From a virus: a DNA stretch of 24,886 nucleotides. Below the pieces are notes generated by a model that did not search any database, had not been told where the DNA came from, and saw only the letters and a program-made list of their open reading frames with translations. The stretch covers positions 1 through 24,886 of IMG/VR virus record IMGVR_UViG_3300025312_000961. One strand, 5' to 3'. The translations under genes were made by a program, and so were the position numbers. Shown here piece by piece: positions 7,759 to 24,886 of this stretch; within the stretch, counting starts at the first letter, position 1; every line of letters begins with the position of its first letter.

Positions 7759-8757
7759 TCAACCCAGGTTGGCCCCAGGCTCCACCTCGACCGTAGGCCC
7801 CGGGGCTGCCGCAAGGCGCTCGCGCTCATGGGGACATTGACCGAAGCGATTTCGTGCCAGATTGCAGCTATGGCAGAGCACCTGGTACCCAGGGGGGAAG
7901 TGATTCTTTCGGAGCCAGATGTAAAAGTTTCGACCATCCGTCTTACTCCCCGTGATTTCCAGCCGGTGGGCCGCCCCGTTGTTATCTATGTGATCGATGC
8001 TGAGGAAATCGAGGTGCTCGGTACCGCAGCAGGCACATTTCTGACCACCATAGGCGTTGAGTATCTGGAGCTTGAGCTTCACATAGCCATTGCGCCTACG
8101 CTCTCGAACTTTATGCTCCTCACCCACCGATGAGTACACAGTCTCAGGTGGTCGCCCCACCCTCACTCCATAGTCCTCAAGACCGTGCGGACAACGATTC
8201 CGGTGCCCAAGAGCAAAATTACAATTCATACAAAGAAGCCTTAAGGTGACCGGATAACCGTTACGTTTTGCCCACGCCCGTAGGGCATCTCCACCCCTCG
8301 GGCCATCCCTATATCCACCTATATGATCCAAAGTCAACAGATCTTCCCTGTGCTCACCGCAGCATAAGCATCGACCACCGTAAGCCATAAACACTTCAGT
8401 CTTTACTTTGTGACGCATTTCTCCATGCTTCTCTCGAACCTTAGACAGATTTCTGTCCTCCCAGTCTTTGGCACGAGCCCTACAGGTGGCACACCTGGAA
8501 AACCCTGGCTCAGACAATTTCGTGCAGTCAGATCCAATGCAAAGCCCCTTAGCTTTCTTTGATTCTGTGGGTATTCTATTTGTGGCCTTGTACCCACGCA
8601 TATATGCCAAATGCTTTGAACACTTGACCTTACCTTCCTCGTGCGGTCTGTGGCAATCCTGAACCGAGCACTCGGTTGCCGGTTTGACTATGGCCTTACG
8701 TCTGTAGTACTTCAGTCGGCTTCGCTCTCGTTCTTTCGCTGGATCTTTGTATGGCAT
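7759..8757 (-). CDS. HNH endonuclease with two tandem HNH modules (homing-type)
   Basis: This encodes 332 residues starting MPYKDPAKERERSR, a typical opening of phage and homing HNH proteins, so I place the start at 8757 rather than at an upstream TTG. Two cysteine clusters lie near the N-terminus (C30/C35/C46 and C73/C78/C89/C92). Two HNH modules follow, at about residues 125-192 and 235-311. Each has AYGG, a CxC-C knuckle, a (T/S)(L/I)DHI active-site strand, a long insert, LLCMNCN or VLCHSCN, and a final CPH. The enzyme would nick or cut DNA with a metal ion bound by the histidine and asparagine. It sits alone between the capsid terminator and the neck genes and is visibly less GC-rich than its neighbours, which suggests lateral arrival. 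No Shine-Dalgarno sequence is visible. Confidence 0.85.
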   Translation of the reverse strand: MPYKDPAKERERSRLKYYRRKAIVKPATECSVQDCHRPHEEGKVKCSKHLAYMRGYKATNRIPTESKKAKGLCIGSDCTKLSEPGFSRCATCRARAKDWEDRNLSKVREKHGEMRHKVKTEVFMAYGGRCLCCGEHREDLLTLDHIGGYRDGPRGGDALRAWAKRNGYPVTLRLLCMNCNFALGHRNRCPHGLEDYGVRVGRPPETVYSSVGEEHKVRERRRNGYVKLKLQILNAYGGQKCACCGTEHLDFLSIDHIDNNGAAHRLEITGSKTDGRNFYIWLRKNHFPPGYQVLCHSCNLARNRFGQCPHERERLAAAPGPTVEVEPGANLG

Positions 8758-8799
8758 GAGTAAGTTTACAACAGTTTCACACAATACTCAACTCAAGAC

Positions 8800-21291: not shown

Positions 21292-22413
21292 CTACGATAG
21301 TTTGGTGTCACGAGCCAACGCCTGGGCCAGGGAAGTCTTGAACGTCTCGATCGACCCCTTGGTAGTCGTGACCGCAGGGGCAATCTGCTGGAACCCAGGT
21401 TGTAGGGCTGCCAAAGGACCTTGCGCCGCAACAGCCAAGGCGGCCCCCGTGGCCGCCAGGCTGTCCATCAAGACGGACATACCCGTGAGGAACGCCTCCA
21501 ACTGGGTCTTGAGGGTCGTGCCCAAGACCGCTGGTTCCGTGGCATTTGCCAATTCTACGCCTGAGTCTCCATTTAGTTTCGCCTTCCCGGTAGCCGACAT
21601 GTTGAATTCACCCTCGACCGTCATGTCGAAATCATCAGTGAATTCGAGCGTCGTGCTCGCGGCCGTGACCTTGAGGTTACCGGCCCGGTCGACAGTGCAG
21701 CGAAACACTTCTTCGCCATCCTTTTGCACAGCCCTGTGGTCCACGGGACGGTCTGGCATGTCGGTCACGTCGGTCACGTTCCCTTGCTTCAACACCAAGA
21801 CCACCTCACCCTTGCTGAATTCCTTGACCTCGTAGACCAGCTCCACCGGGGTCCCGTCGATCCCCTTCTCATCCCGACGGTTCTTCCAACGGAACTCGCC
21901 CCCGGCGGTCTCGAGGGTATAGTTTTCACAGATGTCCTTGATCTGGTGGAGCAGGGGGATGAAGATCCGGCGGGTCACGGGGTCGGCCGCGATGTCGACG
22001 ATTCCACCGGCATGCACGTGGACGTAGTTCCCTGATTCCGACGACATCATGGTGTCACCCGGCCGCATGGCCTTGCGGCGACCCCGGGCGTAGCCCCTCT
22101 GGGCCACCACCGGGAGGAACATCAGGATCACGGGGCTCCGGACGTCCGACAGGTGGGCCACGATGCACTTGTCCCCCACCTGGGGCATGTACCCCATCAT
22201 GGTGCCGTTGCGACTGACCCCCAGGCCCCCGATCTCAATGTTCGACGGTCTACGGCCCGAGAACTTGCATTCCAGATCACACGTCCACAGATCTGGATCC
22301 ACCCGCACGACTTCCGCCGTTTCAATCAGGACAGGCCGATCCGGCGGTACCCACCCGCCCCCAGGGTCTGGTAACTTCAGGCTCGTGAGCTGATCATCGC
22401 GGTTCAGCACCAT
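21292..22413 (-). CDS. Baseplate central spike / assembly protein V-like (OB-fold)
   Basis: This encodes 373 residues from the ATG at 22413, which shares a base with the RNA polymerase stop codon (TAATG), so it is translationally coupled; the longer open frame upstream is antiparallel-like and rejected. Residues about 30-105 have the OB-fold pattern of gpV and gp45 spike proteins (AEVVRVDPDLWTCDLECKFS, then MMGYMPQVGDKCIVAHLSD). A beta region follows (about 125-290), including TTLEFTDDFDMTVEGEFNMS, that should form a trimeric beta-prism or helix. The end, EPAVLGTTLKTQLEAFL, is typical of spike-hub proteins. The spike caps the tail tube and pierces the outer membrane. A lysozyme domain as in T4 gp5 is not visible. 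Confidence 0.75.
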   Translation of the reverse strand: MVLNRDDQLTSLKLPDPGGGWVPPDRPVLIETAEVVRVDPDLWTCDLECKFSGRRPSNIEIGGLGVSRNGTMMGYMPQVGDKCIVAHLSDVRSPVILMFLPVVAQRGYARGRRKAMRPGDTMMSSESGNYVHVHAGGIVDIAADPVTRRIFIPLLHQIKDICENYTLETAGGEFRWKNRRDEKGIDGTPVELVYEVKEFSKGEVVLVLKQGNVTDVTDMPDRPVDHRAVQKDGEEVFRCTVDRAGNLKVTAASTTLEFTDDFDMTVEGEFNMSATGKAKLNGDSGVELANATEPAVLGTTLKTQLEAFLTGMSVLMDSLAATGAALAVAAQGPLAALQPGFQQIAPAVTTTKGSIETFKTSLAQALARDTKLS

Positions 22414-24886
22414 TACCCTGCTGTTTTGGGATCTTGAATCTTGCCGAACCCGATGGACGGCAGGGGCCACCGACCCGCTATGTCGGCCTTCGCGGCCGTC
22501 AGGACCCCGGTCTCCATGGTGCCGCGGAGTCGCTCGAACGACATCTTGGCTGCCCAATCATCCGTCCGGATCAAGGGCATGGTGTTGACCCCCCGGATCA
22601 TTGGGTTGGCCTTGACAGCCCCGCCATCTTCAATCTTGACCCTCATGATATTGTGATCCTTGAGGTCCTTGGCCACCAGGTCCGTCACCTCGGTGCCACG
22701 GCCATACTTGAGGTACTTCTCCGCCAGTTTTTTTCCAATGGCCCAGTCGGGCGCCATGTAGCGGCGGTTGAACGCCTCGATCTTGGCCATCGAGACGACA
22801 TCACCACGCCCGAACCCCGAGGCACCGTCGGCCTGATCCACCACCCCGAGGTCAGTCATGTGGCGCACCACCGTTTCGATGTGGCGCTTGTCAACCCCAA
22901 GGGGTCCGTAGAGTTCGTGGAGAGACCCTACCATGTGGTTCTGCGCGGCCCCAATGCCCGCGAGGCTGGCGAGCTGGTGGACATTCACCTGACCAGACGA
23001 AATCTTGTCCCCTTGTTGAACCTTGGTCCCAACCTTAACCTCCAGGGTCCTGGACGCCGGGACAAATTGTTCCTTGGTCCCAACGAAGACCTTCCATCCG
23101 GTCGCGGTCTTGTTGATCGATGTCACGGTACCGGTCACCTGGCTCAGGACGGCCTCGTCCTTAAGACGAAGCGGCGCTTTCAGCAGGGTCTCGGCCACGG
23201 CGAACTGATCCACGAGTTTCGAAGCCTTGGATGCCACGCCGCCTTCATGAAACAGCTTCATGGACAACTGGGTCGTGGGTTCCCCAAGGGACTGGCCACT
23301 GATCACCCCGATGTTGGTACCGACGGACGGATCGTTACCGTCGTGCCACCGGCCAAAACACTTGGCACAGATGCCATCATGAGCTTCACATTTCAACGGA
23401 GTCCTGACCAACAGTTTCGATACCCCTGCGTTGCGGGCCGACATCACGACCGTGCCATCCACAAGAGTGTCCTTAGCTACTGACTTGTTCCCGATCTTCT
23501 GGGCCTTGGCCAGGTAACGCCCGATGATGTCACGACTCTTCACATCCTCGTATATCCCCTGGCTCGTCTGGCAATCTTCCGTGGTAACCCGGGCATCTGC
23601 CACCGTGCTGATGATCTGGCGGGACAGGTACCCCGGGAGCGCGGTCCCGCGGGACTTCGAGATCATGCCAAGCCGAGCCCCGTGGAGTGTGGTCCAGTAG
23701 TCCCCGAGTTTCAAGCCTTCGGCATACGACCGGTTGATCGGCTTGGGGGCCACGCGGCCCGCCTCCGTTGAAATCATGCCAGGCGATAAGACAATCTGCT
23801 TCAACTGGTCGAATGTCCCCCGGGCACCCGAGACAACGGTCTTGTACAACCCGTTGTCCTGGGCCGAGAGCCGGCGCTTGGCCTCGTGCTCGACCTTATC
23901 ACGGGCCGTGCTGTACTGTTCGATCCGGCGGACCGAGTCCGTGGCGTTGGGAAGATGCTTGGCCAAATCTTTCATCGGCTTGAGATCCGCCATGCTGACC
24001 GACGCCCCGAGGGTAAAGGCAGCCTTGTCCCCCAGTTGCCGCATGGTCGTGAGGAACTGGGGGAAATCGGCCGGCTGGGTCTTGCCCACCTGGACCATCA
24101 GGCTGTTGACCTGATGTTTGTCCAGACGGAATTTTCGGTCGTACGCGATCTTCTGGTACCAGTCGTCATGTAGACGACCCATGGGGATCGCGTTGGCCAC
24201 CAGGAGGCGTCCTAAGGTCGTCTTGCGCCCCCCAAAGGTCACGACGTCCTGGAGGCGAACCTGTCGACGGCCATACGCTTCCATCAATTTGTCGAAACTT
24301 TGGAACACCTGGTTTGTGTTCCTCCCCTCCTCGGTCAACAGGTAAAGCCCCAACTGCTGCTCATGCTGGGGCTTGTGCATCAGGGATCCGGACTTCACGC
24401 CGAAGAGGTTCCGGCTCGGGACGAGACCCTTGGCCTCTTCCTTCGCCGCCTCGGTGGCCGGGACGTAGACCGATACGGTGTTGGACAGCACGACACCCTC
24501 GACGTTCATAAAGGTCTCGTGCCCCGGGACCGTGAGGTCGTAACCCGTCTCCCGAATACCCGTGACCTCCACGGATTCCACCATGTCCCACGTAACATCC
24601 GTCTGCTGGACGATGTTCCACCACAGAGCGCCATCGGGGTGGGCCACAATCTGATTTATTGACACGTAAGATGTGACTCGTTCAGCAGCATCTCGTGTTA
24701 CATAGCCTTCTTTCGCTGCCTTGTTAAAGTTGAAATACGCATTCTTGCGAGCCTGCGGGGCGCTGCGTTCCATAGGAATACTTTTGTAGATGTGCTGGGC
24801 CAAGGAAACAGAGATAGGAACAAGATCGTGGCGCACGAGAGATGGGGTAATCCCTATCTCGATTGAACGTAATAGCTCCAGTTTAT
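22413..24886 (-). CDS. rpoC: RNA polymerase beta-prime subunit, C-terminal part, interrupted by an intein (5' end outside window)
   Basis: The frame is open to the right edge; the GTG at 24836 is not a true start. From 24479 down, 688 residues match bacterial beta-prime downstream of its catalytic loop. TVSVYVPATEAAKEEAKGLV corresponds to the segment after NADFDGD, then come SGARGTFDQLKQI and a bridge helix (YAEGLKLGDYWTTLHGARLG). The second zinc site keeps all four cysteines (TEDCQT and CEAHDGICAKC). The trigger loop is GEPTTQLSMKLFHEGGVA with the catalytic-loop His and Met. The length equals E. coli beta-prime without its SI3 insertion. It would form, with beta and other subunits outside the window, a phage RNA polymerase that transcribes phage genes. 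It is coupled to the spike gene, so late expression or packaging in the virion is possible. Confidence 0.88.
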   Translation of the reverse strand, partial: KLELLRSIEIGITPSLVRHDLVPISVSLAQHIYKSIPMERSAPQARKNAYFNFNKAAKEGYVTRDAAERVTSYVSINQIVAHPDGALWWNIVQQTDVTWDMVESVEVTGIRETGYDLTVPGHETFMNVEGVVLSNTVSVYVPATEAAKEEAKGLVPSRNLFGVKSGSLMHKPQHEQQLGLYLLTEEGRNTNQVFQSFDKLMEAYGRRQVRLQDVVTFGGRKTTLGRLLVANAIPMGRLHDDWYQKIAYDRKFRLDKHQVNSLMVQVGKTQPADFPQFLTTMRQLGDKAAFTLGASVSMADLKPMKDLAKHLPNATDSVRRIEQYSTARDKVEHEAKRRLSAQDNGLYKTVVSGARGTFDQLKQIVLSPGMISTEAGRVAPKPINRSYAEGLKLGDYWTTLHGARLGMISKSRGTALPGYLSRQIISTVADARVTTEDCQTSQGIYEDVKSRDIIGRYLAKAQKIGNKSVAKDTLVDGTVVMSARNAGVSKLLVRTPLKCEAHDGICAKCFGRWHDGNDPSVGTNIGVISGQSLGEPTTQLSMKLFHEGGVASKASKLVDQFAVAETLLKAPLRLKDEAVLSQVTGTVTSINKTATGWKVFVGTKEQFVPASRTLEVKVGTKVQQGDKISSGQVNVHQLASLAGIGAAQNHMVGSLHELYGPLGVDKRHIETVVRHMTDLGVVDQADGASGFGRGDVVSMAKIEAFNRRYMAPDWAIGKKLAEKYLKYGRGTEVTDLVAKDLKDHNIMRVKIEDGGAVKANPMIRGVNTMPLIRTDDWAAKMSFERLRGTMETGVLTAAKADIAGRWPLPSIGFGKIQDPKTAG
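24480..24886 (-). mobile_element. Intein, C-terminal splicing part, inside the RNA polymerase beta-prime gene
   Basis: About 135 residues are visible. The end has intein blocks F and G: ESVEVTGIRETGYDLTVPGH, then ETFMNVEGVVLSN followed by T. The terminal Asn119 (counting from the GTG at 24836) would cyclise and the +1 extein residue is Thr120. The penultimate residue is Ser instead of the usual His, as in a minority of active inteins. The junction lies exactly where the catalytic NADFDGD loop should join TVSVYVP. Upstream sequence (QARKNAYFNFNKAAKEGYVT) belongs to the intein; no LAGLIDADG motif is visible, but the N-terminal half lies outside the window. Confidence 0.85.

Follow-up and report, generated by a model that had tools for sequence, protein, structure and literature searches.

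An intein without an N-terminal nucleophile after the catalytic metal loop of a phage RNA polymerase, with a putative class-2-like splicing route

How could a phage RNA polymerase be assembled when its catalytic metal loop is interrupted by an intein that begins with glutamine? To our knowledge, protein splicing is taught as requiring Cys or Ser at intein residue 1, and the two exceptions known are the class 2 inteins of the KlbA type and the class 3 inteins with a block F Cys. The locus that raises this question is the complete IMG/VR virus record IMGVR_UViG_3300025312_000961 (24,886 bp, analysed over its whole length and hereafter the window), a tailed-phage fragment in which the polymerase gene shares its strand with a gene for a terminase large subunit of the GpA type. 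The polymerase gene is truncated at the contig end: its minus-strand frame has no internal stop, continues past the right end of the window (Table 1) and starts ...YDLTVPGHETFMNVEGVVLSN|TVSVYVPATEAAKEEA, where the bar marks the junction between intein and C-terminal extein. The sequence after LSN matches rpoC (TIGR02386, 5e-82), while the sequence before it matches the Pfam family Intein_splicing weakly (27 bits, below the curated cut-off); Pfam also finds RNA_pol_Rpb1_4/5.

Since record and window are the same, the missing 5' part of the gene is absent from the window's own record. It is supplied by four contigs (L001-L004) from four IMG/VR samples, which are 99.97-99.99% identical where overlapping. 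Each carries a single open reading frame (ORF) of 2944 aa in which Pfam and NCBIfam place beta domains first and beta' domains after, with catalytic motifs including NADFDGD. The ORF holds two inteins, and its joined exteins amount to 2074 aa. The intein in beta' (510 aa, LAGLIDADG) lies directly after the Mg-binding loop and reads ADFDGD|Q...LSN|T, with SDDD as block B; residue 1 is Gln in all four contigs, a repetition that speaks against assembly error as its source. The intein in beta (360 aa) begins with Cys1, ends SGN|S and sits between NPA and SVVGRVNLGQ; its block B reads TPNH, and it too has a LAGLIDADG domain. In another relative, L067, the beta intein is three residues away within the same conserved loop (NPTGVP|TR vs NPA|SVV), and both begin CYDDKTE and end SGN. 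An earlier note on the window, made from its letters alone, had placed an intein directly after the catalytic Asp triad of a phage beta' polymerase. The near-identical contigs bear out this position, their upstream sequence ending in ADFDGD, as well as the multisubunit type of the enzyme and the homing domain; the chain itself, however, is a beta-beta' fusion with a second intein in beta, and the Cys or Ser start and TxxH block B that the note had expected are replaced by Gln and SDDD.

The junctions are fixed by homologous polymerases free of inteins, those of Salmonella phage Arash (gp206/gp216) and Vibrio phage D69, which align with the joined exteins without a gap at either site. At the beta' site, ADYDGD-ALSMYLP (Arash) and ADYDGD-AMSVFAP (D69) correspond to ADFDGD-TVSVYVP in the joined exteins, and at the beta site NPASVTSRINLGQ corresponds to NPASVVGRVNLGQ. 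Removal of the in-frame insert thus restores a conserved host protein, and because no gap appears at the junction the first intein residue is Gln. The alignment, together with the lack of any conserved Cys, Ser or Thr nearby, rules out a shifted N-terminal junction hiding a nucleophile. Elsewhere in this gene family, the polymerase gene of Vibrio phages D181 and D148 is interrupted by an insert, possibly an intron, that carries an ORF for a homing endonuclease and is absent in D69.

Domain searches and the predicted structure both describe the beta' insert as an intein, with a HINT fold bearing the splicing blocks and a LAGLIDADG domain. An AlphaFold2 model built from an 18-sequence alignment (mean predicted local distance difference test score 78, low at the N-terminal junction) was matched by Foldseek to VMA and archaeal inteins, among them the TliVMA intein (E 8e-19).

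The insertion is not a singular case: many related phages carry inteins here. Among about 150 loci obtained by scanning with polymerase alignments, several had inserts at the DFDGD site, and scans with the inserts themselves brought the number of distinct inteins at or adjoining this site to 41; given these relatives and a predicted fold that matches solved inteins, the presence of an intein at this site is not chance. Beta and beta' motifs stand on one chain in 96 distinct ORFs (median 2112 aa), so among these phages a fused chain is the rule. Of 50,697 phage records searched with the intein by tblastn, none matched, and a genome scan found one full relative (L195), the other 34 matches being partial and mostly confined to the LAGLIDADG part. 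The full relative lies in JAGMDA010000864.1, binned as Candidatus Eisenbacteria, where a 3610-aa ORF comprises the polymerase and the intein together with one or more additional block B motifs of intein type (TEDH); this contig is probably phage.

The 41 inteins form two groups, here called DDD and H. Group DDD (n=25, including the window intein) has nine different identities at residue 1 (Q9, E3, D3, A2, F2, Y2, C2, K1, L1), so that only 2 of 25 members start with a nucleophile, in both cases Cys. Block B is [ST]DDD[PE]R, with Ala replacing the Ser or Thr in one member, block F is YD[LI]TVPxxETF, and the LSN terminus, Thr at +1 and Asp at -1 are found in all 25. Group H (n=16) begins with Ser (13) or Cys (3), has DH in block B wherever it is readable, ends in Asp (WD/YD), and is followed by Thr, Cys or Ser; Asp(-1) is present in 15 of 16. 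The two groups differ sharply at residue 1 (Fisher p 1.5e-9), and for most members their block A can be aligned residue for residue. Group DDD occupies one side of a branch with support 100/99; judged from these sequences it is a monophyletic clade, in which the need for an N-terminal Cys or Ser appears to have been lost. Even sister sequences differ at residue 1 (Glu in L186 and Asp in L189; Gln in L021 and Asp in L195).

Several relatives show departures of their own. L049 and L270 carry a Ser1, Asp-ending intein two residues downstream (DFDGDAM|S), from which group H seems able to use a neighbouring site. L177, an intein-bearing gene, has the metal loop DFNGD, with the middle metal-binding Asp changed to Asn. 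In L051 and L278 the C-extein reads TMVRFYIQ... and is no longer polymerase sequence beyond TM, which points to a frameshift or an assembly join.

Loss of the first nucleophile in group DDD is accompanied by replacement of three histidines: the block B His by Asp121, the F:13 His by Glu498 and the penultimate His by Ser509. The earlier note had suggested that a Ser in the penultimate place may slow splicing or make it conditional; as this Ser is invariant in 25/25, the suggestion is unsupported, and the residue reads as a trait of the clade and not as a defect. Position F:4 is an invariant Asp491. No Cys column is conserved across the 25 inteins, so that a Cys nucleophile of the class 3 kind is excluded. 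Ser98, one of the few invariant hydroxyl residues, lies in a WSxH motif and is invariant together with His100 (25/25).

Signs of retained function come from the flanks and from selection. The +1 residue is Thr, Ser or Cys in 41/41 intein-bearing alleles vs 59/97 distinct intein-free ones, which also have Ala, Lys or Gln, and Thr itself is enriched in group DDD (25/25 vs 55/97, p 8e-6); such a bias is what one would expect of a +1 side chain that takes part in the chemistry. The ratio of nonsynonymous to synonymous substitution rates is 0.15 for the L186/L189 pair although residue 1 differs (E/D), indicating purifying selection. On 12 contigs of 69-205 kb each part of the polymerase N-extein region was found once, which speaks against a second intact polymerase gene there; one of them (G005) has its beta part in one gene and its beta' part in another.

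Some members are encoded in pieces. In L260 and L261, from two samples and identical over the compared stretch, the intein is encoded as two separate genes. The first ORF ends NADFDGD|LQINSVFVRFYDKSSEGQKIK-stop, leaving an intein N part of 21 aa with Leu at residue 1; after about 100 nt containing a promoter-like site (TTGACA-16-TATAGT), a second ORF starts MNRVKFF... and encodes what is left of the intein, up to LSN|TMTYYVP, the remaining beta' being a third ORF elsewhere. Recurrence in two contigs from different samples speaks against assembly error as the source of this arrangement. In a single contig, L242, the N part is 25 aa long and closed by a stop, and an in-frame ORF follows. From split parts of this kind the metal loop could presumably be formed only by trans-splicing.

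The beta' insert is a homing-type LAGLIDADG intein placed between the final metal-binding Asp of NADFDGD and the residue after it, and we consider it rather probable that it splices in a class-2-like manner through direct attack by Thr+1. We infer splicing and its chemistry from what is observed, namely the insertion site, the junctions, the residue patterns, the clade, the fold prediction and the split forms. Thr+1 would attack the peptide bond between Asp(-1) and residue X1 directly, and Ser/Thr118, Asp121, Asp491, Glu498 and Ser509 would assist as a rebuilt active site; Asn510 would then cyclise, and the ester would rearrange to a peptide, restoring DFDGD-T. The polymerase Mg site would be unable to form until the intein is removed, and from the position of the insertion no polymerase activity would be expected before splicing. 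Several points weigh against this route. The model is of low confidence at residues 1-15, so that active-site geometry is not visible; Asp(-1) is present in all members, all at one site, so that help from Asp(-1) is inseparable from attack by Thr+1; and the invariant Ser98 could be a hidden nucleophile. Direct attack on an amide would also be harder for Thr, and the class 2 inteins in the literature found use Cys+1 (PMC4031507).

The main rival, which we regard as unlikely, assigns the first step to the host protein. Other proteins that process themselves are known to cleave through an Asp anhydride, and here the carboxylate of Asp(-1), the third metal-binding Asp, would attack its own carbonyl to give a cyclic anhydride, releasing the intein N-terminus before Thr+1 opens the anhydride. 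The constancy of Asp(-1) in 25/25 beside a free residue 1 and the lack of any conserved Cys fit this route, but the polymerase needs this Asp anyway, group H has it too (15/16), and opening could produce the wrong (beta) linkage. A nucleophile might instead lie within the intein, an internal Ser or Thr replacing residue 1 in a class-3-like reaction with oxygen in place of Cys. Its best candidate is Ser98 of WSxH, invariant together with His100; this residue, however, precedes block B and lies outside block F, and the position of the class 3 Cys, F:4, is Asp in every member, so we think such a route improbable.

That the insert is simply degenerate, its residue 1 having drifted as splicing was lost and leaving only C-terminal cleavage or an inactivated gene, would account for the disappearance of the N-terminal nucleophile from nearly all members and of the block B and F histidines. 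We hold this to be very improbable in view of the fixed LSN|T, the purifying selection, the intact exteins on both sides, the single copy of the interrupted region on the 12 contigs and the maintenance of separate-gene forms. Removal as RNA, by a group I or II intron with a LAGLIDADG ORF, is scarcely credible: it could explain the stop codons between the two parts in L260/L261 and L242, but the insert of L004 is in frame with full intein blocks, the frame is conserved to LSN|T, and no Rfam intron family matches L260, L004 or the window.

Set against the defined intein classes (PMC4031507, PMC7664689), the beta' intein has neither the Cys or Ser at residue 1 nor the TxxH block B of class 1, and it lacks the F:4 Cys of the class 3 WCT motif. 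With class 2 it shares the missing residue-1 nucleophile, Ser at G:6, Asn at G:7 and Asp at F:4, all of which also occur in the Mja KlbA orthologs; it lacks the Ala1, Cys+1, block B His and KlbA host common to all class 2 inteins in the 2014 review (PMC4031507). Thus, where KlbA inteins have fixed Ala1, B:10 His and Cys+1, group DDD has nine residue-1 identities, B:10 Asp, F:13 Glu, Thr+1 and a phage polymerase host. Class 3 inteins likewise have no N-terminal nucleophile and a proposed phage origin, but group DDD is without the F:4 Cys or any conserved Cys. The class 1 inteins of group H (e.g., L128, L030, L272) share the site, a DLxDFP segment and the LAGLIDADG layout with group DDD, which is without their Ser/Cys1, block B His and Asp end.

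RNA polymerase inteins are known from archaea (Mja rPol A', A''), eukaryotes (RPB2, RPA2, RPC2) and nucleocytoplasmic large DNA viruses (PMC1635734); their hosts are likewise multisubunit enzymes, but the genes are cellular or belong to those large viruses, whereas here the gene is phage. By description, the polymerase carriers resemble the mReC phages (Weinheimer and Aylward, 2020; PMC7481178), which are tailed, encode cell-like beta/beta' and occur in IMG/VR; the text of that paper yielded no mention of inteins or of a beta-beta' fusion in mReC. Crass-like phages have inteins in TerL and disrupted polymerase genes (PMC7886860). The atypical split intein AceL-TerL has a 25-aa N part with Cys1 (PMC11766414), compared with 21 aa and Leu1 in L260. 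A literature search on Gln1, nucleophile-free or phage polymerase inteins, with intein catalogues (e.g., InBase) and closed papers outside its scope, found no report of group DDD.

Elsewhere in the window, a 341-aa ORF without a Pfam match contains a tandem pair of HNH-like Cys/His modules (CLCCGEHREDLLTLDHI followed by CACCGTEHLDFLSIDHI in our listing) and looks like a free-standing homing endonuclease.

Table 1. Positions of the features discussed, in the window and in related contigs.
Feature	Record	Positions	Strand	Remarks
Polymerase frame	window	24884-22413	-	
Last ~135 aa of the beta' intein (510 aa), ending LSN	window	24480..24886	-	remainder off contig
Intein blocks F and G region, GYDLTVPGHETFMNVEGVVLS	window	24483..24545	-	Asp491 (F:4), Glu498 at F:13 His place, penultimate Ser509
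Codon of the intein's last Asn	window	24482-24480	-	
Thr+1, first C-extein residue, presumed nucleophile	window	24477..24479	-	codon 24479-24477; Thr in 25/25 relatives vs 55/97 intein-free alleles
beta' C-terminal extein after NADFDGD, to end of fused beta-beta' ORF, stop included	window	22413..24479	-	TIGR02386 5e-82, Pfam RNA_pol_Rpb1_4/5
341-aa ORF	window	7759-8784	-	HNH-like modules
Fused polymerase ORF, 2944 aa	L004	3638-12472		
beta intein, 360 aa	L004	6059-7138		
beta' intein, whole	L004	8876-10405		
ORF with shifted beta intein	L067	from 6398		
Intein split into two ORFs	L260	6807-6977		21-aa N part
Intein split into two ORFs	L242	6735-6815		25-aa N part
Metal loop DFNGD	L177	5827-5862		
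Interrupted polymerase gene (D181, D148)	L007	1572-7086		

It is possible, though on balance doubtful, that group DDD represents a further mechanistic class of splicing, one that uses neither an N-terminal nucleophile nor an internal Cys and whose first step falls to Thr+1 or to the catalytic Asp of the host. Such a class would so far be limited to the metal loop of RNA polymerases of phages, and some of its members would be naturally split. The 25-member clade, with its free residue 1, its three histidines changed to Asp, Glu and Ser and its fixed Thr+1, offers a natural series for studying how an N-terminal junction is activated without a thiol. It would be a source of splicing tools that tolerate any of several residues at position 1 and are naturally split, and its splicing chemistry may be unusual. 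For phage biology, the insertion site suggests that some phage RNA polymerases would become active only after splicing at the active site itself.
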